A DNA stretch of 47,003 nt from Verrucomicrobiota bacterium. GTDB taxonomy: Bacteria > Verrucomicrobiota > Verrucomicrobiia > Limisphaerales > UBA8199. Of this stretch, positions 22,378 to 32,444 are shown piece after piece. The notes under the pieces are model-generated. The model was given only the letters and a program-made list of their open reading frames with translations. It ran no database searches and was not told the DNA's origin. The position numbers and the translations under genes were made by a program. The stretch lies in assembly GCA_003176045.1 (NCBI GenBank), contig PSRM01000032.1, forward strand, positions 1-47,003, read 5' to 3'. Within the stretch, counting starts at the first letter, position 1; each line of letters opens with the position of its first letter.

Positions 22378-25044
22378 ATGGGTAGCAGCATCCCTAAATC
22401 AGCGTTCCAACCGGGCGTGAACGCGGACGAGGCCGTCCGCGACTCCGGCATCGCTCTGAACGAGGCCGATACCTGCCGCAAATTTGTCGTCCCAAAACTC
22501 CAGGCCGCCGGGTGGGACAACGAACCTCATTCCATCGCCGAGCAACGGGCGTTCACGGATGGGCGGATCGTAGTGCATGGCAATCGGGCCATTCGCCGCA
22601 AAGGCAAACGCGCCGATTACCTGTTGCGCTACACGCGCGATTTTCCACTGGCTGTTGTCGAGGCAAAGGCCGCGTACCAGCACGCGGCGCAGGGGCTGCA
22701 GCAGGCAAAGGAATACGCCCAAATCCTCGGGCTGAAATTTGCCTACGCAACAAACGGCCAAATCGTTATCGAGGCGGACGCCATCACAGGGCTGGAACGC
22801 GAAGTGGCCACCTTTCCTACGCCGGCTGAATTGTGGTCGCGTTGGAGCCGTTCGGAGCGCGGCATTTATGCCGCTTCACCGTTATTAGCTCCCGTAGCTA
22901 TTCCCTCCGCCCAGGAGCCGCGCTACTACCAACAAATTGCTATCCAGCGCGCCATCCTGGCCATTCTCCAGGGCAAACGGCGCGTGCTCATCACCATGGC
23001 CACGGGCACGGGCAAGACGGTTGTGGCGTTTCAGATTTGCTGGAAACTGTGGTCTTCGAAATGGAACGCCAAGGCCGATCCCACAAGGAAACCGCGAATT
23101 CTGTATCTGGCCGACCGCAATTTCCTGGTGGACGATCCCAAGGATAAAATCTTTGCCCCGTTCGGCGACGCGCGCTGGAAGATCGAAGGCGGCCAGATCG
23201 TGCAGAGCCGGGAGATTTATTTCTCGACCTACCAATCCATCACGAAGGACGAGCGGCGCCCAGGCCTTTACAAGGAATTCCCGCCGGACTTTTTCGATCT
23301 GATCATCGTGGATGAGTGCCATCGGGGCAGCGCGCGGGACGACTCGAACTGGCGCGAGATTCTGGACTATTTCTCGCCCGCCTATCAGCTCGGCATGACC
23401 GCCACGCCCCTGCGTGAGGAGAACAAGGACACCTATCTCTATTTCGGAAACCCGATCTATACCTACAGCCTCAAGCAAGGCATCGAGGACGGATTCCTGG
23501 CGCCGTACCGGGTGCATCGGATCGTGACACAATGGGATGCCGCCGGCTGGCGGCCCAGCAAGGATGAGCTGGACCGCTTCGGACGGCAGATTCCGGACGA
23601 AGAATATCGCACCGCCGATTTCGAGCGCATTGTGTCCCTGCGCGCCCGGACGCAGGCCATCGCGCGGCACCTGACGGATTTTCTGAAGAAGACTGATCGG
23701 TTTGGGAAGACGATTGTGTTCTGTGTGGATCAGGAGCATGCCTCCGAAATGCGCGCCGCCCTCCAGAATCTCAACACCGACCTCATCGGCACCCAGCCGG
23801 CGGGACTACAGACTACGGACCACAGACCACTGACCACTGACCGCGGAATCCCCCCTCACCCCAGCCCTCTCCCCCTCGGCGGGGGAGAGGGAGAATCGGA
23901 GCCCGCGTCTTTGCGAAAGGACGGTCGTGGTCAGACGCGGAGCGCTCTCGCCGGCGGGAGCCCGAGCCGGGCAGGCCATCCGGCACTCCCAGGGCCGTTC
24001 CCGGATTACGTGTGTCGGGTGACTGCGGATGAGGGGGACATTGGCCGCGGGCACATGCAGCGGTTTCAAGACGTCGAATCCCGCTCGCCCGTTATCCTGA
24101 CCACATCCCAACTCCTCAGCACCGGCCTCGACGCGCCGACCTGTCGGAACGTGGTCCTGGTGCGGCTCATCAATTCCATGGTCGAGTTTAAGCAGATCAT
24201 TGGCCGCGGCACACGCGTCCGGGACGAATACGGCAAACTCTGGTTCAACATCCTCGATTACACCGGCACCGCCACGCGCAATTTCGCCGACCCCGCCTTC
24301 GACGGCGATCCCGCCTTCGCCACACAGGAAGAAATTGACGAACACGGTAAGGTGAAGGAAACCGAGATTATCACCCCAGAGGAACCTGAATCCGAACCGC
24401 CTCCGCCGGAGGGCCTGATTGCTGAACCTTCAACTTTCAACCTCCAACCTTCAACCCGGAAATTCTACTTCGACGGCGGCCAGGTCCAGATCGTGTCCGA
24501 ACTCGTCCATGAACTGGATGCCGACGGCAAACAACTGCGCGTGATCAAACTCACCGACTACACGGCCGAAAAAGTGCGCACCCTTTGCTCCAGCCCCGAA
24601 GACCTGCGCGCCCGCTGGTCCGATTCGGAGCAACGTGCCGAAATCATCCGTCAGCTTGCCGAGCGCGGCATTGATTTCCAATCCATCGCCGCCCAGGCCG
24701 GCAAACCCGATGCCGACCCCTTCGATCTCCTGTGCCACCTGGCCTTCAATGCCCCTCTGCTCACAAGGCGGCAGCGGGCTGATCGGGTGAAGAAACAGCA
24801 AACCGCGTTCTTCAATTATCTTGGTCCGGAAGCGCGGGAGATTCTGGATGATCTGTTGGAGAAATACGCGGCGGATGGAGAAGTGCAGTTTACGCTGCCG
24901 GATGTCTTGAAGGTGCCGCCGATTTCGAGGCGGGGGAATGTGAATGAGATCATTGGGAAGTTTGGGGGTGCAAACGAGCTCCGAGCCGCTGTAAACAAAC
25001 TCCAATCGTTATTGTATGCGGCGGAGCCGTTGAATTTAACCTAA
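22378..25044 (+). CDS. hsdR: type I restriction enzyme, R subunit
   Basis: The motor and nuclease subunit of a type I restriction-modification complex, 888 residues. The N-terminal PD-(D/E)xK nuclease site is visible as RADYLLRY (D80) and VVEAKAAY (E95, K97). The SF2 helicase motor has MATGTGKTVVAF (Walker A), IIVDECHRG (motif II), GMTATPLR (III), STGLDAP (V) and QIIGRGTRV (VI). The C-terminal domain, which binds HsdM, is present. Four stretches are translated intergenic-type repeats: residues 15-24, 159-168, 476-541 and 683-693. The frame is open throughout, so the gene is intact, but the helicase insertion is large. The start is uncertain: ATG at 22378 or GTG at 22417. Its partners hsdM and hsdS lie 4.1 kb and 6.2 kb downstream, after an inserted cassette. 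Confidence 0.95.
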   Translation: MGSSIPKSAFQPGVNADEAVRDSGIALNEADTCRKFVVPKLQAAGWDNEPHSIAEQRAFTDGRIVVHGNRAIRRKGKRADYLLRYTRDFPLAVVEAKAAYQHAAQGLQQAKEYAQILGLKFAYATNGQIVIEADAITGLEREVATFPTPAELWSRWSRSERGIYAASPLLAPVAIPSAQEPRYYQQIAIQRAILAILQGKRRVLITMATGTGKTVVAFQICWKLWSSKWNAKADPTRKPRILYLADRNFLVDDPKDKIFAPFGDARWKIEGGQIVQSREIYFSTYQSITKDERRPGLYKEFPPDFFDLIIVDECHRGSARDDSNWREILDYFSPAYQLGMTATPLREENKDTYLYFGNPIYTYSLKQGIEDGFLAPYRVHRIVTQWDAAGWRPSKDELDRFGRQIPDEEYRTADFERIVSLRARTQAIARHLTDFLKKTDRFGKTIVFCVDQEHASEMRAALQNLNTDLIGTQPAGLQTTDHRPLTTDRGIPPHPSPLPLGGGEGESEPASLRKDGRGQTRSALAGGSPSRAGHPALPGPFPDYVCRVTADEGDIGRGHMQRFQDVESRSPVILTTSQLLSTGLDAPTCRNVVLVRLINSMVEFKQIIGRGTRVRDEYGKLWFNILDYTGTATRNFADPAFDGDPAFATQEEIDEHGKVKETEIITPEEPESEPPPPEGLIAEPSTFNLQPSTRKFYFDGGQVQIVSELVHELDADGKQLRVIKLTDYTAEKVRTLCSSPEDLRARWSDSEQRAEIIRQLAERGIDFQSIAAQAGKPDADPFDLLCHLAFNAPLLTRRQRADRVKKQQTAFFNYLGPEAREILDDLLEKYAADGEVQFTLPDVLKVPPISRRGNVNEIIGKFGGANELRAAVNKLQSLLYAAEPLNLT
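22422..22448. repeat. GCGGACGAGGCC palindrome translated at the HsdR N-terminus
   Basis: Same family as 5234-5255 and 34956-35089. It reads as ADEAVRDSG in HsdR; the GltB copies read as the related ADEAVRGSG. The conserved HsdR sequence appears to start just after it (LNEADTCRKFVV). Confidence 0.9.
22852..22883. repeat. GGAGCGCGGCATTTATGCCG element translated in HsdR
   Basis: 32 bases that match the intergenic copy at 45369-45400 at 31 of 32 positions. In HsdR it reads as SERGIYAASP (residues 159-168) in the linker between nuclease and helicase domains. Confidence 0.93.
23805..24000. repeat. repeat block translated in the HsdR helicase
   Basis: Begins with GACCACT-type heptamers (23811-23841). 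A hairpin element follows with arms CTCTCCCCCTC and GGGGGAGAG around 23866-23892, then a Gly/Pro/Ser-rich block to about 24000. Together it adds about 65 residues that look foreign between NLNTDL and FPDYVCRV. Confidence 0.88.
24425..24457. repeat. AACCTTC heptamer array translated in HsdR
   Basis: Units AACCTTC, AACTTTC, AACCTCC, AACCTTC and a partial AACCC. It reads as PSTFNLQPST (residues about 684-693) at the junction of the motor and C-terminal domains. Confidence 0.93.
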
Positions 25045-25053
25045 CATTCAATT

Positions 25054-26613
25054 ATGGGACTTCGAATTAATCTGCAGCATGCTAGTTGGCTCGCGCACAT
25101 ATTAAAACCGTCGGGTTCTGTTCCGCCGCTCAAACCAGATCGGGATTGGGAGCAGACCGAAGTGTTCAACCAATTTCTTGAACAGTTCGAGCATGACTTT
25201 TATTCCGGTATTGGTTATGAACGGCTTTGGCGTGAAGAAGTGCGAAGGCTTGCGGAAACGGTTCGTTCGGCTGGGGGACCTAAGGGATTCTCGGAGGGAG
25301 TTAGGCGGATTCGCCATTTTCTGGGTGACAGGCCGTGGACGGCACTTCTCCTTCCATCTGGCCGTGACGAAGAGCTGGATGAGCGACTTTGCGATCCTCG
25401 ACTGCTGCGCGAGGTATGTCGTATCCGACCCGATGACCCAGGCCTGATTCTCCAGTTGCAAGAACCTCCAAGAGATATCCTTGTCCTCAACGACCTCTTC
25501 CCGGCTTTCAAAACCGCGCTGGCGTCACCTAACGAATGGCCCGGCGTCCTGGTATGGCTCAATTCTGGCGATTCCAGATTCTTTACGCTGAAGGGCATCG
25601 CTGGATTTCACGAAGAACTGCGCTGGCTGTTCTCCCATCTGGCGGCAAGTCGATCGATAGATCTTGAGGAGCTCGGGATCCTGTACGGGACCGCGTTTGC
25701 CTCGAAATCGGAGCGAGTCGACGAAGTCACGATTATCCATCTCAGCGATGTTCACATTGGCTGTAAACAGGCAAGTTTGCGAGTGCCCCGGTTAACTCAA
25801 CTTGTGAGGAACATCATTCAGGAGGTGGGTGAAAACAGGAGATTCGTTATCGCGATTAGTGGCGATTTGATGGATAGCCCTGAGGAACGTAATCTTAATG
25901 AGGTTCGGGTTTTTCTCGATTCCCTGGCGAACCTGGTAGACGAGCCATTGATTACTTGTTTGGGCAACCACGACGTGCGCAAGGATGGTTATTTGTCGGA
26001 GGACTTGAAGATGACGATGCGCATTCCATCACTAGGCGATTCAGTGCGCGAGTTCTGTGATGGGAGGCTCGCGATCGTGAGCTTCAATTCCGTCATTAAG
26101 GGAAAACTTGCTCGTGGATTTGTTGGCGAGCAACAAATGGCTGATATCGCAAACCAGCTCGACCGCAACAGGCGCCTCCAAAGCGCTCGGCTTATTGGAA
26201 TGGTTCACCACCACCCGATTCCTGTCGCTGTCCCTAAATGGTATGCTCAACCTTTTTACGAGAAGTGGCTCGGAGGCGCGTTCGAGAAGACTGACGCTCT
26301 GGAAGATGCCGATGGATTCGTTTCATTCGTTGAGACACGTGGATTTGGATGCATCATTCATGGGCATAAACACATTCCTCACATTGGGAAGAGCATAGGA
26401 GGGGTTCCAATTTACGGGTGCGGAAGTAGCGTTGGTAAGGTTGATACTGTAGACAAGAGGCCTTACATGTCTGTCAATCTTATTAATTACGACCTCATAA
26501 AGAATCAGCTGTCAGCCAGGCTCTTGGCGGAACGTGTGGCAGGTGGGGGCTTAGTCGAGGATCGAAGAACGGAAATTCTCAGTATCCCACGACAGCCGAA
26601 ACGCATCAGGTAA
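25054..26613 (+). CDS. calcineurin-like metallophosphoesterase with novel N-terminal half
   Basis: A 519-residue protein starting 9 bp after hsdR. The C-terminal two-metal phosphoesterase domain is complete: LSDVHIG (D232, H234), SGDLMD (D271), GNHD (N305, H306), MVHHHPIP and HGHKH (436-440). It could cleave nucleotides, cyclic nucleotides or nucleic acid; the substrate is not predictable. The N-terminal 220 residues match nothing I know. They are helical, then alpha/beta (DILVLNDLFPAF, WPGVLVWLNSGDSRFF), and may be a sensor or partner domain. Codon use is visibly more AT-rich than in hsdR, and repeats are absent. This is the first gene of the insert splitting hsdR from hsdM. Confidence 0.85.
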   Translation: MGLRINLQHASWLAHILKPSGSVPPLKPDRDWEQTEVFNQFLEQFEHDFYSGIGYERLWREEVRRLAETVRSAGGPKGFSEGVRRIRHFLGDRPWTALLLPSGRDEELDERLCDPRLLREVCRIRPDDPGLILQLQEPPRDILVLNDLFPAFKTALASPNEWPGVLVWLNSGDSRFFTLKGIAGFHEELRWLFSHLAASRSIDLEELGILYGTAFASKSERVDEVTIIHLSDVHIGCKQASLRVPRLTQLVRNIIQEVGENRRFVIAISGDLMDSPEERNLNEVRVFLDSLANLVDEPLITCLGNHDVRKDGYLSEDLKMTMRIPSLGDSVREFCDGRLAIVSFNSVIKGKLARGFVGEQQMADIANQLDRNRRLQSARLIGMVHHHPIPVAVPKWYAQPFYEKWLGGAFEKTDALEDADGFVSFVETRGFGCIIHGHKHIPHIGKSIGGVPIYGCGSSVGKVDTVDKRPYMSVNLINYDLIKNQLSARLLAERVAGGGLVEDRRTEILSIPRQPKRIR

Positions 26614-26676
26614 AATCGCGCGATGTTTTCCGTTTAAGGCATGAAACACAGTTTGCCACCACCTCAACACTAATAG

Positions 26677-26838
26677 GATTTTCAGGACCTAACGCAGGCG
26701 GTCGCGAAACAACCATACGCGGACTTGATCACGCAAGTCTTTGGAAGCGAGGGACAAGAGCAGGATGGAATTGACGTTGGGGTCGAGGCCGAGCGTATAC
26801 GCGTCCAGGCAAAGAACCGAAGATTGTTTAAGTTATGA
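26677..26838 (+). pseudogene. remnant of a restriction-endonuclease-like domain
   Basis: An open frame without a usable ATG or GTG start; a TAG sits directly upstream at 26674. It reads DFQDLTQAVAKQPYADLITQ and then VFGSEGQEQDGIDVGVEAER, IRVQAKNRRLFKL-stop. This resembles the N-terminal PD-(D/E)xK nuclease domain of STAND-type or Mrr-like defence proteins, in which a G-x-x-G-Q-x-Q-x-G-I-D stretch precedes V-x-Q-x-K. The Asp and the Q-x-K are present. The TGA overlaps the next gene's ATG (ATGA, 26835-26838), so it was once the upstream gene of that operon. A short TTG-started product (from 26725) is possible but unlikely to fold. Confidence 0.55.
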
Positions 26839-27338
26839 ATTCTCAAGATGCTCGCAGTGCTATCGTGGGACTGAATGCAAGTCTCAAAAGAGCAGGTCTC
26901 GACTGGGTTGTTCAAGAGGTTTCGAGGGTTGTTGAGCGCGGAATCGAGGAGCGCAAGGAGGTTGCTTTTGAAAGCTTCGATGCCGCCGATGAACCAATAA
27001 AGAAGCGTGGCCGAAGGACTGAGGTGACAATAACGCGTCCATTGACGGAGATGGAGGAACTTCGAGTACTTGTGGCGTCCGTGCGAGCGTCGGTAATCGA
27101 CGTGAACGAGACTCAAGAAAAGGCGCTCCTCGGGCTCAAAACGAAGGATATGGAGAATCCGTCAATTGGCTTCCGCCCTGACATTCCGGACGGTTTCGAA
27201 GACAAAGGTTATGCTCTCACGGATGAACGGGGACGTCCTTTTGATTTGTCGCTCGCTGAAGTCGAGCGCCAGAAGCAGCGCATTTCCAAGTTGAAGACAA
27301 TCATCATGCAATTGGAGGAGATGATTCGTGCCGACTAG
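26835..27338 (+). CDS. small coiled-coil protein of the cassette, unknown function
   Basis: A 167-residue protein with no recognised family. It has an N-terminal helix pair (ARSAIVGLNASLKRAGLDW), a charged linker with KKRGRRTE, a central helix (MEELRVLVASVRASVIDVNE) and a C-terminal coiled coil (EVERQKQRISKLKTIIMQLE). The start overlaps the stop of the nuclease remnant by 4 bp and the end overlaps the next gene by 11 bp, so all are probably co-translated. It could be an adaptor or inhibitor for the nuclease/peptidase pair; this is inference from position only. Confidence 0.75.
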   Translation: MNSQDARSAIVGLNASLKRAGLDWVVQEVSRVVERGIEERKEVAFESFDAADEPIKKRGRRTEVTITRPLTEMEELRVLVASVRASVIDVNETQEKALLGLKTKDMENPSIGFRPDIPDGFEDKGYALTDERGRPFDLSLAEVERQKQRISKLKTIIMQLEEMIRAD

Positions 27339-28002
27339 CCAAGAACTCGTTGACGCCATTGGGCAGAGCCTCGGAGCTGTCGTTCAATCCGGATTTTCGA
27401 CCAGAACTGCGGCTTGCGACTCTTATGAGGTTTTCGTCTTCTCACTTGTGATTGATGCCGCTCGAAGGGTTGGGGCACAAATCAGCTATCGTAGCATCGG
27501 CATCAGTGCGCCCTTCAATGGTCAATTTACATTCAGGACAGGGCCGGGAAATATCTACTCTCGTGCCTATCCATATACGTACGCGCGGATCGAATTCAGC
27601 GGCCATGGCACCTTAGAGGTTCATGTCGGGATTTATGCCGCTGGTGTTTCAGGCGTTCGGCACGAATGTGACGTGGCCGTATTGCCGTTCGATGAGGCTG
27701 AAAACTGCAGGAGGCAGCGTGTTCACCCGAGGTGCAGCGAACTCTGGCTGGCTGCTGAGTGCAAGTTTTATTCTTCAGAACTCAGCATAGATCTCGGAAG
27801 GTCCTTTTTGGGGCTGGTAAAGGAGATTCACCAGGACAGCCGGTTCTTCGTTACTAATTCGTCCTCGGAGACGCTCGAAAAACTTTTGGCGCACCACAAA
27901 ATTCGCTGGCAACGAAAACTTGTTCCAGGAAATGCTGACTTGGTGAACCGACTTCGCTCCTTGTTCGAGGAGGTATTCCAAAACTACTTAGCCCTGGGTT
28001 AG
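27328..28002 (+). CDS. probable PD-(D/E)xK nuclease
   Basis: A 224-residue protein starting at a GTG inside the previous gene. The pattern RHECDVAVLP (D115), then LWLAAECKFY (E144, K146) on successive predicted strands, matches the D-(x)n-E-x-K active site of restriction-endonuclease-fold nucleases. The following helix (DLGRSFLGLVKEI) and strand (RFFVTNSSS) also fit that fold. An upstream helix contains E34, which could be the fourth acidic residue. It is likely a DNase, and the toxic or effector part of the cassette, but no close family is recognised by eye. It is followed after 21 bp by a metallopeptidase. Confidence 0.7.
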   Translation: MPTSQELVDAIGQSLGAVVQSGFSTRTAACDSYEVFVFSLVIDAARRVGAQISYRSIGISAPFNGQFTFRTGPGNIYSRAYPYTYARIEFSGHGTLEVHVGIYAAGVSGVRHECDVAVLPFDEAENCRRQRVHPRCSELWLAAECKFYSSELSIDLGRSFLGLVKEIHQDSRFFVTNSSSETLEKLLAHHKIRWQRKLVPGNADLVNRLRSLFEEVFQNYLALG

Positions 28003-28023
28003 AGCCGCGTATGCCACGACCAT

Positions 28024-29166
28024 ATGAGTAACAGCCATCGGTCATTTTTCGAAGTGGTTCAAGAGCGTGGAGGGGCCGTTAACCCGGCTAGACTTCCGTT
28101 TCCGCTTCAAGACCTCGCTAACATTACCTTAGACTCCTGTACGCAGATTCGAGTCAAGATCAATTCTTCGCCCTTGCTATGGCCACTTGGCGAAGCCCAG
28201 ATCCAAATCGTCAACAACGATGACTTTAATGCTTTTGCGCATCATCGCCAGGGATGTGAGGGAATTGGCATATATTTAGGCACCTTCGAGCGTTTGACAA
28301 AGCTTTCGATCGCGTTGTGGTCAGAAGAGGGACTGCTATCGAACGCACGCGTTGGATGGCGCGCGAATGAAGTCCTTCAAGACTACGTTGGTGCATGCGA
28401 GCTTGAACACTGGCGAACGCTGCACAAAAGCATCCTGAGCGAAGAGCACTTGGCGCAGCGTCGCATGAATACTGCGTTGACCTCGCTCTGCTACGTGTTC
28501 ATGCACGAGGTTGGACACCTTGTCAGAGCGCATATTCCGTTCTTGTCTAAACGTGCGAGTTGCGAGATCGCGACACTTTACGAGCGCGGTAACACCTCCT
28601 TGCCTTGCTCCAACACGGAATTACAGTTCTTTGAAATCGACGCTGATGTGCATGCGGTAGAAGCGGTGACCGATTTTGCTCTTACGACTTGGGCAAAGGG
28701 TAGGATTTTTCCAGTGAACTTCGCGTACCCGAAGGGAGACCTGTTTTCATACCTTGTGGATTTTTACAGGGGAGTGTGTATGGCGATGTTCTGCCTCGAT
28801 TGCGGTTCAACGTCAAGGCGTCTGGCCTCGCGTAGCAACCACCCCGTCGCGGCAGTAAGGCTTGGAATCGCATGTCTGGCTTCCATGCGCTTGTTGGACC
28901 ATCCATTCCAGATACCTCAGAAGACGGCTTTTGCCGCGTGTGTTGCGGCGTCCATGGAAGTCGGAGACTTGTTTACGAGGAAGGGATTCTCAGCACTTAC
29001 ACTTGAGAACGACCTTATCCTAATGCTCGAAAAATCTGCTGAAATGATGAAACGATCAGAATTCTACCTGGATGGGAAACAATCTGCAATCGATGAGCGC
29101 TTGCAAAGTATGGGACGAGACCCACGGCATTTTGATCAATACAGAGACTTCTACAAAAGGAAATAA
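28024..29166 (+). CDS. HExxH metallopeptidase (M48-like gluzincin)
   Basis: A 380-residue zinc peptidase. Zinc ligands are H161 and H165 in FMHEVGHLV; the third is E204 in FEIDADVHAVE (an ExxAD box). Further on, SNHPVAAVRLG resembles the HP-x-R element at the end of M48 catalytic domains. There is no signal peptide or membrane anchor, so it is cytoplasmic, unlike HtpX or Ste24. Next to a nuclease and a coiled-coil gene, it may process a partner protein after a stress or phage signal. It ends 18 bp before hsdM. Confidence 0.82.
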   Translation: MSNSHRSFFEVVQERGGAVNPARLPFPLQDLANITLDSCTQIRVKINSSPLLWPLGEAQIQIVNNDDFNAFAHHRQGCEGIGIYLGTFERLTKLSIALWSEEGLLSNARVGWRANEVLQDYVGACELEHWRTLHKSILSEEHLAQRRMNTALTSLCYVFMHEVGHLVRAHIPFLSKRASCEIATLYERGNTSLPCSNTELQFFEIDADVHAVEAVTDFALTTWAKGRIFPVNFAYPKGDLFSYLVDFYRGVCMAMFCLDCGSTSRRLASRSNHPVAAVRLGIACLASMRLLDHPFQIPQKTAFAACVAASMEVGDLFTRKGFSALTLENDLILMLEKSAEMMKRSEFYLDGKQSAIDERLQSMGRDPRHFDQYRDFYKRK

Positions 29167-29184
29167 GGCTTTGCCAATTTTCGC

Positions 29185-30765
29185 ATGAACTGGATGCCAA
29201 TGACCTCTTCCACCACCACCGCCCAATCCCTCGCCTCCCTGCTCAAATCCGCCCGGGACATCATGCGGAAGGACAAAGGGTTGAACGGAGATCTGGACCG
29301 GTTGCCGTTGCTGACGTGGATCATGTTTTTGAAGTTTTTGGATGATCTGGAGCTACAGCGAGAACAGGAGGCGAAGTTGGCGGGGAAGAAATTTAAGGCA
29401 GCGGTCGAGGCGCCGTATCGGTGGCGGGACTGGGCGGCGAAATCGGATGGGATCACGGGAGATGAATTGCTGGCGTTTATTAACAACGAGGAAACTACAA
29501 GGCCGGACGGGAAGAAGGGAGCGGGGTTGTTTCGGTATTTGCGGACGCTGACCAGCTCGAATGGGGACGATCGGCGGGATGTGATTGCGACGGTGTTCGA
29601 GGGGGTGGATAACCGGATGAAGAGCGGGTATTTGCTGCGCGATGTGGTGAACAAGGTGGCCGCGATACATTTTACATCGTCCGAGGAACTGCACACGCTG
29701 GGCGCGCTGTATGAGACGATGCTGCGCGAGATGCGGGATGCGGCGGGGGATTCGGGCGAGTTTTATACGCCGCGAGCGGTGGTGCGGTTCATGGTGGCTG
29801 TGACCGATCCGCGGCTGGGCGAGACGGTGCTCGATCCGGCCAGCGGCACGGGCGGATTTTTGGTCGAGGCGTTCAATCATTTAGCCGGCCAGGTGAAGAC
29901 GGTGGCGGACCGGCGCGTGCTGCAGGAGAAGAGCCTTTTTGGGTGCGAGCCGAAGCCGTTGCCCTATTTGCTGTGCCAAATGAACCTGCTGTTGCACGGT
30001 TTGGATGCGCCGCAGATTGATCCGGGCAACGCGCTGCGGTTTAAGTTGACGGATATCGGGGAGCGGGACCGGGTGGATGTTATTCTGACGAATCCGCCGT
30101 TCGGCGGCGAAGAAGAGCGCGGGATACAGGGGAATTTTCCGGAGGACAAACAGACGGCGGAGACGGCGCTGCTGTTCCTCCAGCTTATAATGAGGAAGTT
30201 GAGGCGCTCGCAGGGTTCAGGGTTCAGGGGGCAGGAGTTGGGGGAGAGGGTTCAGGGTTCAGGGTTCAGGGTTTCAAGGGCGGCGGTGGTGGTGCCGAAT
30301 GGGACGCTGTTTGGAGATGGGGTTTGCGCTAGGATCAAAGAAGAGCTGCTCAAGGAATTTAATCTGCACACGATTGTGCGGCTGCCCAATGGTGTGTTTG
30401 CGCCTTATACCAGCATTCCGACGAATATTTTGTTTTTTGATCGGTCGGGGCCGACGCGGGAGGTGTGGTATTATGAACAGCCGCTGCCGGAGGGGAGGAA
30501 GAATTATACCAAGACTGCGCCGATACAATTTGAGGAGTTCGCTCCGGTTATAAGTTGGTGGGACAAGCGCGAAGAAAATGAACGAGCGTGGCGAGTACCG
30601 GTGGCGGAGCTACTTGCTAATGGGTGCAATTTGGATCGGAAGAACCCGAGGGCGAAAGAAGATATTACGCATCTACCGCCGGAGGAGCTGGCGGCGAGCA
30701 TCTTGCAGAAGGAGCAGCGGATAGCGGAGATTATGGGGAATATACAAGCACTGCTGAGGAAATAA
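29185..30765 (+). CDS. hsdM: type I DNA methyltransferase, M subunit
   Basis: The N6-adenine methyltransferase of the restriction system, 526 residues. The N-terminal helical HsdM_N domain has LPLLTWIMFLKFLDDLE. The SAM-binding motif I is LDPASGTGGFLVEAF, and the catalytic motif IV is ILTNPPFGG (NPPF at 303-306). Residues 343-364 (SQGSGFRG... GSGFRVSRA) are encoded by nine 7-bp repeats just before AAVVVPNGTLFG. The array length (63 bp) keeps the frame now. ATGs at 29194 and 29200 are alternative starts. HsdS follows after a 495-bp repeat-filled gap. Confidence 0.95.
   Translation: MNWMPMTSSTTTAQSLASLLKSARDIMRKDKGLNGDLDRLPLLTWIMFLKFLDDLELQREQEAKLAGKKFKAAVEAPYRWRDWAAKSDGITGDELLAFINNEETTRPDGKKGAGLFRYLRTLTSSNGDDRRDVIATVFEGVDNRMKSGYLLRDVVNKVAAIHFTSSEELHTLGALYETMLREMRDAAGDSGEFYTPRAVVRFMVAVTDPRLGETVLDPASGTGGFLVEAFNHLAGQVKTVADRRVLQEKSLFGCEPKPLPYLLCQMNLLLHGLDAPQIDPGNALRFKLTDIGERDRVDVILTNPPFGGEEERGIQGNFPEDKQTAETALLFLQLIMRKLRRSQGSGFRGQELGERVQGSGFRVSRAAVVVPNGTLFGDGVCARIKEELLKEFNLHTIVRLPNGVFAPYTSIPTNILFFDRSGPTREVWYYEQPLPEGRKNYTKTAPIQFEEFAPVISWWDKREENERAWRVPVAELLANGCNLDRKNPRAKEDITHLPPEELAASILQKEQRIAEIMGNIQALLRK
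30212..30274. repeat. AGGGTTC heptamer array inside hsdM
   Basis: Nine consecutive 7-bp units: two perfect AGGGTTC, three degenerate, three perfect and one AGGGTTT. Total 63 bp, i.e. 21 codons, in frame. Gain or loss of one or two units would shift the frame about two thirds of the way into the gene. Confidence 0.95.
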
Positions 30766-31259: not shown

Positions 31260-32444
31260 ATGAAAGGACCGTGGCCAAAGGTCAGGTTGGGGGAGGTGCT
31301 CATGGAGCGGCGAGAGGTGCCTTCCGACGAGGACATCGCCTTAGGGAAGGTTCGAATTCTTTCGAAGATTAGCTTCGATTCTGGAATCATCGAGGTGCGT
31401 GCAGGGTCTGAAACAAACACGGGAATGATTCTGGCCAGGCCTGGCGACCTCGTCATTTCGGGGATTAATGCGGCCAAGGGAGCGATCGCAGTTTATGGAG
31501 CTGAAAACGGAGACCCAATCGCGGCCACTATCCATTACGGTGCCTACACACCGAAGCTTGATCGCGCCGACCTGAGATTTTTGTGGTGGTTCTTTCGCAG
31601 CAATCCTTTTCGTAACTTGCTGAATGAACATCTTCCCGGCGGCATTAAGACGGAGTTAAAATCAAAGCGGTTGTTGCCCATCCCCATTCCTCTCCCGCCG
31701 GTGTCCGAGCAGCGCCGCATCGTGGACCGGATCGAGGAACTGGCTGCACAGATCCAGGTAGCGCGCTCGCTACGCGTACAGTCTGCTGCTGAGGGAAAAG
31801 CATTAAGTCTCGCTGCCTCCGAAGCGGTCTTTCGCAATCTCAAGAACCAGGTCGGAAGTAGGCGACTCGCTGATGTTTGCCTGACCATTACGGACGGTGA
31901 TCACAACACGCCTCCGTTTACCGTTGAGGGTGTGCGGTTCATTTTCGTAGGAAACGTGTCGAGCGGAAAGCTACACTTCGAAAATGCGAAATGGGTAGAT
32001 CCTTTGTACTTTAGGTCTCTAAGCAGCAGCCGCGTCCCGAAACGCGGCGACATTCTCTACAGTGCCGTGGGAGCGACACTCGGCATACCCGCTCTTGTTG
32101 ACCTTGACGAGTCGTTCTGTTTCCAGCGCCACATCGCCATTTTAAAGCCGGACCTTGAGCGAGTGGATAGTTGCTTCATTCGTTATATGCTGTCCTCGAG
32201 GTCCGTATTTGAGCAGGCGTGGTCTTCAGCCACCGGTTCTGCCCAACCAACCGTGCCACTTCGCGCCATTCGCGATTTACCCATTCCCGTTCCCCCTCTG
32301 CCTGATCAATGCCGTATCGTGGCCGAACTCGACGCAATTCAGGCGCAAGTTGACTCGTTGAAGCGACTCCAGGCGGAGACGGCGGCGGAATTGGATGCGC
32401 TGCTGCCGGCGGTGTTGGATCGGGCGTTTAAGGGGGAGCTGTGA
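31260..32444 (+). CDS. hsdS: type I restriction-modification specificity subunit
   Basis: Sets the DNA target of the HsdR/M complex, 394 residues. It has two target-recognition domains (about 5-150 and 205-345). Each ends in the conserved proline motif and helix: LPIPIPLPPVSEQRRIVDRI and LPIPVPPLPDQCRIVAEL. The two long helices (about 155-185 and 355-385) separate the half-sites. TRD1 contains PGDLVISGINAAKGAIAVYG and TRD2 KRGDILYSAVGATLGIPAL, the usual TRD core. The frame is intact. Confidence 0.95.
   Translation: MKGPWPKVRLGEVLMERREVPSDEDIALGKVRILSKISFDSGIIEVRAGSETNTGMILARPGDLVISGINAAKGAIAVYGAENGDPIAATIHYGAYTPKLDRADLRFLWWFFRSNPFRNLLNEHLPGGIKTELKSKRLLPIPIPLPPVSEQRRIVDRIEELAAQIQVARSLRVQSAAEGKALSLAASEAVFRNLKNQVGSRRLADVCLTITDGDHNTPPFTVEGVRFIFVGNVSSGKLHFENAKWVDPLYFRSLSSSRVPKRGDILYSAVGATLGIPALVDLDESFCFQRHIAILKPDLERVDSCFIRYMLSSRSVFEQAWSSATGSAQPTVPLRAIRDLPIPVPPLPDQCRIVAELDAIQAQVDSLKRLQAETAAELDALLPAVLDRAFKGEL

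Follow-up and report, generated by a model that had tools for sequence, protein, structure and literature searches.

Defence genes embedded in immune systems are reportedly the subject of a 2024 preprint by Payne et al., and we take the PDC families of PADLOC to be linked to that work. Lit, the phage-exclusion peptidase of the E. coli prophage e14 (Peptidase U49), cleaves EF-Tu. Type I restriction operons can carry effector genes inside them: PrrC in EcoprrI and DarTG2 in the RptR island of EPEC are described in two papers, and the RptR island also encodes a predicted M48 metallopeptidase (PMC3874165, PMC12255303). The metallophosphatase DS-9A, which came from DefensePredictor, is reported as anti-phage (PMC13092281). 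The locus analysed here lies in a 47,003-nucleotide stretch of a Verrucomicrobiota contig, PSRM01000032.1 (the window, meaning the whole of that stretch).

Gene content of the hsdR-hsdM gap

The R, M and S subunits of an EcoAI-type type I restriction system were all present on the forward strand of the window: hsdR (22378..25044), which scored 1006 bits against NF046051 (cut-off 550) and matched PF04851 and PF08463, hsdM (29185..30765; PF02384, 195.8 bits; PF12161) and hsdS (31260..32444; PF01420). Between hsdR on the 5' side and hsdM on the 3' side, 4.1 kb (25045..29184) hold, on the same strand, a metallophosphoesterase (MPE; 25054..26613, 519 aa), an open remnant of 53 codons (26677..26838), a small fast-evolving partner protein (CC; 26835..27338, 167 aa; alignment A3), a PD-(D/E)xK nuclease-like protein (NUC; 27328..28002, 224 aa, GTG start) and a Lit/U49-like zinc peptidase (PEP; 28024..29166, 380 aa). 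The ORFs of MPE, CC, NUC and PEP are open where the initial annotation of this DNA had placed them, and its gene joins are also correct, with the remnant and CC overlapping by 4 bp, CC and NUC by 11 bp, and a 21-bp gap from NUC to PEP. Its premise that hsdR and hsdM are normally adjacent fails in this lineage: a gap of about 0.8-2.3 kb separates them in all six of the relatives read that have both genes, in the order hsdR then hsdM. In each of these six, the gap holds different, unrelated genes; from their motifs, we take them to be Fic-like, TcmP-like, MurI-like, DUF3800-like and GxxExxY-like. The hsdR-hsdM gap is a recurrent cargo slot of this restriction lineage, and the window is no exception.

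The block is richer in AT than its surroundings, as had been claimed, with GC falling from about 0.59 outside to 0.50-0.52 across it. Codon use, a check that the initial annotation had named, was not equal to that of hsdR and hsdM, because both GC3 (0.53-0.56 vs. 0.72) and codon adaptation (0.52-0.54 in the cassette genes vs. 0.68-0.69 in hsdR and hsdM, with gltB of the window as reference) were lower in the cassette. The shift gives the cassette a foreign look, and its genes are likely to serve in defence, as had been proposed.

MPE matched PF00149 (40.9 bits) and NF053862, the DS-9A model, with 66.8 bits (E 1.7e-18), below the 420-bit cut-off. The N-terminal half that had been called novel is indeed uncovered, over residues 1-212, by any family in Pfam, PADLOC, NCBIfam or PHROGs. 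Among 97 relatives MPE (E ≤ 1e-15) was found in one, which is the window itself, and the other three slot genes matched no HAD family in Pfam. With MPE under the family cut-off as well, the gene pair of a DS-9 system, a metallophosphatase with a HAD phosphatase, was not recognised here. The 53-codon remnant, which had no meaningful match in the PDB, reads by its motifs like part of a REase domain.

PEP carries the residues H161-E162-x-x-H165, E204, D208 and H273-P274; H161, E162, H165, E204 and D208 were invariant in 9/9 PEP sequences, aligned with Lit. The structure model predicts a zincin, in agreement with the zinc-peptidase fold proposed earlier. By sequence, Lit/U49-like zincin is a better label than M48-like, although the nearest solved folds are M48. 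A single profile comparison of PEP with Lit gave a probability of 67.6% (E 5e-5 for that one comparison) and the NCBIfam Lit model gave E 0.019. PF10463 did not match PEP by hmmscan or genome search; a precomputed PF10463.16 label is carried by P0001 and six relatives. Foldseek with PEP returned unrelated helical proteins (E 0.23 or worse), and PDB sequences gave no meaningful match. PEP was found in one of 97 relatives and one of 387 in the phylum sample, each time the window itself, and none was confirmed in IMG/VR.

Conservation and pairing of CC and NUC

The residues D115, E144 and K146 of NUC were kept in 58/58 sequences of alignment A4 and in 41/41 when the window was aligned with all 40 related loci. 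In the NUC model they sit on predicted strands 111-120 and 141-146, and this model has the restriction-endonuclease fold that had been suggested for a "probable nuclease"; Foldseek gave a best E not below 0.014. We predict NUC to be a PD-(D/E)xK nuclease, which would cleave DNA or RNA in a metal-dependent manner. By sequence NUC had no meaningful match in the PDB and no Pfam family (single members of its alignment reached only E 0.047 or worse), and it was found in one of 387 in the phylum sample, the window itself, and in none of the phage records. CC reached only E 0.093 in Pfam, its profile found no solved relative among PDB sequences, and neither search recognised a known DNA-binding family. 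Neither protein matched PADLOC (2.0.0), NCBIfam or PHROGs at E ≤ 1. No description of CC-NUC was found in literature titles and the openings of abstracts, where the pair could not be searched by name.

In 39 of the 40 related loci (L003-L042, to which the window is additional), the exception being L039, an ORF of 90 aa or more on the strand of NUC ended at or near the NUC start. Of these 39 ORFs, 33 formed a single blastp cluster, and CC of the window matched the profile of 33 CC proteins from other loci with 52.1 bits (E 3.7e-16). The profile was matched strongly by L006 (55.3 bits) and weakly by L037 and L040 (18.9 and 17.2 bits), and L036 and L038 were linked to the cluster via L037 only. 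The CC partner was counted in 38/40 loci, because L039 has no such ORF and the ORF of L041 did not match the profile; in most of them the CC stop and the NUC start overlap. NUC start and CC stop overlapped by 1-14 bp in 37/38 and by 4 bp in 27/38, both upper bounds since the candidate start closest to a 4-bp overlap was chosen. Across 38 gene pairs, window included, the identities of CC and NUC co-varied (r 0.95) and mean identity was 0.49 for NUC and 0.31 for CC, indicating that CC diverges faster; CC ORFs ranged from 137 to 247 aa.

A partner gene placed first with a short overlap, a conserved catalytic protein beside a faster-changing partner, tight co-divergence and the swapping of the pair between loci would all suit a toxin-antitoxin pair, in which CC neutralises NUC and the carrier locus or defence island is stabilised by having the two genes. 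We regard this as possible but less likely than not: the CC size range is large for an antitoxin, CC has no known DNA-binding family, and the excess of restriction genes beside the pair, given below, is greater than plain addiction needs. Toxin-antitoxin and defence roles of CC-NUC are compatible with each other.

The initial annotation had further proposed CC, NUC and PEP as one system in which PEP activates NUC by cleaving NUC or CC. The close spacing of PEP behind NUC, their common GC3 and codon use and the Lit-like zincin nature of PEP are consistent with this, but a search for the trio elsewhere found that only the CC-NUC pair recurs (38/40), with no relative of PEP or of MPE in L003-L042 (tblastn, E ≤ 1e-3; 0/40 for PEP). 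PEP is not generally needed with NUC, because these 40 loci lack a relative of it, and we consider activation by PEP quite improbable.

Exchange of the pair between defence loci

In Streptomyces, NUC proteins that are 94-97% identical follow different restriction systems: type I in L020, ISP in L023 and type III in L026. Conversely, L011 and L026 have a common type III system (93% identity over 4.1 kb) and CC-NUC pairs with only 79.5% DNA identity. Among four Streptomyces pair groups, DNA similarity began between -44 and +11 of the CC start in 57/57 between-group comparisons and ended 0 to 37 bp beyond the NUC stop in 45/57, the remaining 12 having a further 222-303 bp in common downstream of NUC. 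Within groups, at least 114-185 bp upstream of CC were also common, with a strong hairpin in this stretch in L020, L023 and L026, and the pair may thus be expressed separately from the preceding operon. That the window, L020 and L022 are all type I loci would fit the idea that CC and NUC belong to type I restriction enzymes as dedicated accessory subunits, but the presence of near-identical NUC after type III, ISP, Wadjet and Ssp genes makes this reading extremely unlikely.

Neighbours matching a known defence family were found in 21/39 genome loci, bearing out the expectation of the initial annotation that homologues of the nuclease lie beside other defence genes. Fourteen matched directly: type I restriction (L020, L022), type III restriction (L011, L033), ISP restriction (L023), type IIG (L027), type IV (L009), a type IV-like helicase (L010), Wadjet with NaeI (L013), SspH (L017), HmaC (L006), Zorya (L035), Orf5/HEC-06 (L037) and NucS-like PDC-S11 (L018). 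Seven (L004, L008, L012, L019, L025, L026, L028) were assigned by homology to a directly matched locus or to HsdM of the window. In 9/39 loci the 8 kb upstream contained a PF04851 helicase in the same orientation, against 0.36 expected (Poisson P 2e-10); merging L008, L010 and L012 left seven loci (Poisson P 1e-7). A PF02384 N6 methylase lay inside the locus in 7/39 against 0.31 expected (P 4e-8). On a viral contig (L042) the pair is beside TIR and SIR2-like genes, and a plasmid-borne pair adjoins SAVED/ThiF/Mov34 genes.

The other 18 of the 39 loci were assigned no clear defence neighbour. Four of these (L005, L014, L016, L021) were ambiguous. In the remaining 14, a bulk scan of neighbours 230 aa or longer gave matches to DISARM (DrmD, DrmA), AbiU and others at E ≤ 1e-10, which were not attributed to a locus. 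Among scanned upstream neighbours, all picked by eye, those in L003 and L029 were metabolic enzymes, that in L004 was an integrase, and those in L036 and L040 had no family match. Defence islands gather unrelated genes, and these metabolic neighbours, together with the slot gene of one relative of the window (L073) that we take from its motifs to resemble glutamate racemase, would fit passive hitchhiking of CC-NUC without a defence role. This we consider improbable, as the active-site residues are kept in every aligned sequence and just two genes are conserved while the flanks change.

Proposed role and comparison with known systems

We think it rather probable that CC-NUC is a portable two-gene module, placed behind defence operons of many kinds to serve them as an anti-phage add-on effector, because the unit stands behind quite different systems in close relatives and, in the window, in a restriction locus with likely defence genes. 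In the window it occupies the hsdR-hsdM slot alongside PEP, which is Lit-like, and MPE, which is DS-9A-like. CC would keep NUC inactive or recruit it, and infection, or sensing by or failure of the neighbouring system, would free NUC to cut DNA. PEP and MPE would be separate defence cargo of the same slot rather than subunits of the pair. A more far-reaching version, which we consider doubtful, is that CC-NUC is a universal plug-in warhead, a self-contained nuclease whose variable CC would respond to a cue that unrelated systems share (DNA ends, stalled translocation, front-line failure). A restriction, Wadjet, Ssp or CBASS locus could then gain a second lethal layer simply through insertion of the pair at the 3' end.

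CC and NUC have no family name in Pfam, PADLOC, NCBIfam or PHROGs. If the add-on reading is true, a nameless pair that recombines between some ten types of anti-phage system would be a layer missing from defence catalogues and would show how bacteria put a second line of attack onto existing systems. At 1.2 kb the pair is a compact, testable unit whose active site is conserved. Since near-identical copies follow different systems, one can ask cleanly whether the module is autonomous or depends on its neighbour.

Compared with Can2, Card1, NucC and type II endonucleases, which are also PD-(D/E)xK enzymes, NUC is only 224 aa, with no ligand domain recognised and no PDB sequence match. PEP has its HExxH, E..AD and HP motifs in register with Lit, which is 297 aa against 380 aa. 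MPE resembles the metallophosphatase part of DS-9A and differs in its unmatched N-terminal part and in a score under the cut-off. Like the embedded genes that Payne et al. reportedly treat, CC and NUC are new candidate defence genes within or beside known systems, and one NucS-like neighbour is PDC-S11 itself; unlike the PDC families, neither is matched by a model of PADLOC 2.0.0 at E ≤ 1. As with PrrC in EcoprrI and DarTG2 in RptR, the gene of a toxic or lethal enzyme (predicted in the window) lies within an hsd operon, but the CC-NUC nuclease is of another family and stands behind many systems, not hsd operons only.

Gene content of the restriction locus

The window encodes an EcoAI-type type I restriction system consisting of the restriction subunit hsdR (22378-25044, + strand), hsdM (29185-30765) and hsdS (31260-32444). 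Between hsdR and hsdM, all on the + strand, lie a metallophosphoesterase (MPE; 25054-26613), a 53-codon remnant (26677-26838), a small partner protein (CC; 26835-27338), a PD-(D/E)xK nuclease-like protein (NUC; 27328-28002) and a Lit/U49-like zinc peptidase (PEP; 28024-29166), with hsdM forming the 3' flank. The 3' end of the remnant overlaps the CC start by 4 bp, as if it were a piece left of an earlier upstream gene since replaced. The initial annotation had described this block as apparently more AT-rich than its surroundings, and MPE, CC, NUC and PEP did differ from hsdR and hsdM in GC, GC3 and codon adaptation, the last taken against gltB of the window as reference. hsdS was intermediate in composition (GC3 0.61, CAI 0.54).

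A conserved CC-NUC pair

Database searches identified 32 other protein relatives of NUC, together with 39 loci in a scan of species genomes (L003-L041), one locus in a scan of viral contigs (L042) and one from a plasmid search (L044). Judging by genus names, we take these loci to span Pseudomonadota, Bacteroidota, Acidobacteriota, Actinomycetota, Cyanobacteriota and Chloroflexota. Pair counts refer to the 40 loci L003-L042, leaving out the plasmid locus. All of the 40 except L039 (39/40) have an ORF of 90 aa or longer, on the strand of NUC, that ends at or near the NUC start. 33 of these 39 ORFs formed a single blastp cluster, and a profile of the 33 proteins matched L006 (55.3 bits) and the window CC (52.1 bits; E 3.7e-16, 100 sequences), matched L037 (18.9 bits) and L040 (17.2 bits) weakly, and gave no match to the upstream ORFs of L036, L038 and L041. 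Those of L036 and L038 joined L037 in blastp clustering. CC was thus counted as present in 38/40 loci, a figure that takes in the two weak profile matches and the two ORFs linked via L037. Identity to the window CC was 12-25% (MAFFT, 29 others). The NUC start overlapped the CC stop in 37/38 loci, an upper bound by construction as starts were picked nearest to a 4-bp overlap, and CC and NUC identities were correlated across the 38 gene pairs (0.95, a value inflated by related sequences). On the Sphingomonas plasmid (L044:2867-9427) the annotated gene upstream of NUC is shorter (72 aa), and the pair adjoins a CBASS-like group of SAVED, ThiF and Mov34 genes.

PEP had 8 other relatives after a profile search of the protein database. 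The initial annotation had joined CC, NUC and PEP into one unit, which is not supported as a conserved one. Searches of the 40 other pair loci (tblastn, E<=1e-3) turned up neither PEP nor MPE, so the two are best regarded as cargo of the gap in their own right.

Defence neighbours and portability

Neighbours of the pair were picked by eye and scanned with Pfam and PADLOC. A clear defence match lay beside the pair in 14 genome loci: type I (L020, L022), type III (L011, L033), type ISP (L023), type IIG on the 3' side (L027), type IV (L009), a type-IV-like helicase (L010), JetC and JetD with a NaeI endonuclease (L013), SspH (L017), HmaC (L006), NucS-like PDC-S11 (L018), a divergent ZorA (L035) and a convergent Orf5/HEC-06 (L037). 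Seven further loci were assigned by homology to L010 (L008, L012), L013 (L019, L025) or L011 (L026), or by an HsdM match (L004, L028), giving 21/39 genome loci. Ambiguous neighbours were an SbcC-like AAA protein (L005), a NACHT protein (L014), a helicase (L016) and a NucS domain (L021). The remaining 14 loci contributed 100 neighbours of 230 aa or longer to one pooled scan, which matched DISARM DrmD/DrmA, AbiU and others, among 25 listed of 51 matching families and for the pool as a whole rather than per locus. Neighbours without defence meaning included a pyruvate-ferredoxin-oxidoreductase type enzyme (L003), a nitroreductase (L029) and an integrase (L004), and ORFs tried upstream in L036, L040, L028 and L007 had no defence meaning or no match in Pfam and PADLOC.

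Because neighbours were picked by eye, two markers with genome-wide counts served as a control. PF04851, counted across the 39 genomes and required to lie no more than 8 kb upstream on the same strand, was placed by coordinates at no fewer than nine loci (L008-L012, L020, L023, L026, L033) against 0.36 expected by chance, or seven once the syntenic L008, L010 and L012 were merged. PF02384 was found within seven loci (L004, L018, L020, L022, L023, L027, L028) against 0.31 expected. The Poisson P values (2e-10 for nine and 1e-7 for seven PF04851 loci; P 4e-8 for PF02384) are optimistic, since loci from the same genus are partly dependent on each other.

The 13 Streptomyces loci fell into four groups: A (L008, L010, L012), B (L011, L013, L017, L018, L019, L025), C (L020, L023, L026) and D (L027). 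All 57 comparisons between groups showed DNA similarity (75-89% identity) setting in between -44 and +11 relative to the CC start. In 45 of them it stopped 0-37 bp beyond the NUC stop; in the remaining 12, all A vs B, it ran to 222-303 bp past it. Near-identical NUC proteins accompanied different systems: L020 (type I), L026 (type III) and L023 (ISP) were 94-97% identical, L017 (Ssp) was 96% identical to L013 and L019 (Wadjet), and L021 (NucS-like) was 97% identical to L022 (type I). L011 and L026 have a common type III system (93% over 4.1 kb), yet their pairs were only 79.5% identical. In the 12 loci with enough sequence for a comparison, DNA farther than ~320 bp past NUC gave matches longer than 300 bp only between L013 and L025, and inverted; the loci therefore most likely occupy different places.

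Inside a group the pair also brings with it a leader of at least 114-185 bp. The leader of L020, L023 and L026 folds as a strong hairpin, equalled by 1/200, 0/200 and 7/200 shuffles, respectively. Long and GC-rich, this hairpin (L020:7343-7372; also in the L026 and L023 leaders) is located between the restriction operon and CC; L020 and L026 have different arms that still pair. It could end the upstream transcript, and co-transcription with the upstream operon is therefore not to be assumed. L013, L017 and L019 have ~144-185 bp before CC in common with L011, L018 and L025. In the latter three a NucS-like ORF stops ~83-92 bp short of CC; in the former the stretch may be what is left of the 3' end of a NucS-like gene that was replaced.

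We infer that CC and NUC form a portable anti-phage effector pair, with NUC as the predicted cutter, CC as its putative controlling partner and a presumed trigger. The pair may be functional by itself, may work as a toxin-antitoxin unit or may require its neighbour; its independence of neighbour type speaks for self-sufficiency or for a trigger that is very general.

A cargo slot between hsdR and hsdM

Strong hsdR matches occurred in 18/97 related genomes, the window's own counted, and DNA downstream of hsdR was read in the best seven of the other 17 (L071-L077). HsdR was followed by HsdM in six of the seven (aligned pieces 65-80% and 72-91% identical to the window, respectively); in L077 hsdR was truncated and no HsdM was found downstream. 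The initial annotation's premise that the two genes are normally adjacent was refuted for this lineage, as all six relatives with both genes have ~0.8 to 2.3 kb between them, the lengths for L075 and L076 being rough because hsdM or hsdR was split in alignment. The window HsdR contains an in-frame extra stretch of ~66 residues (roughly 475-540; 23800-23997), absent from 7/7 relatives read, that is Pro-, Gly- and Ser-rich and looks derived from repeats. In HsdM (30187-30294) the peptide QGSGFR is present twice, in what looks like repeat-derived coding sequence.

Judging by their motifs, the slot genes of L071-L076 presumably encode Fic, TcmP with its partner, MurI, GxxExxY and REase-like proteins. 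Nine slot ORFs and three from elsewhere in the relatives' loci had no match among themselves or to window genes (blastp, E<=1e-3). As the gaps of the relatives hold unrelated ORFs, the slot is a recurrent cargo site in this restriction lineage, and that of the window, at 4.1 kb, was the fullest among those compared. The recurrent slot fits the idea of embedded cargo, for which PrrC and DarTG2 provide published precedent (PMC3874165, PMC12255303).
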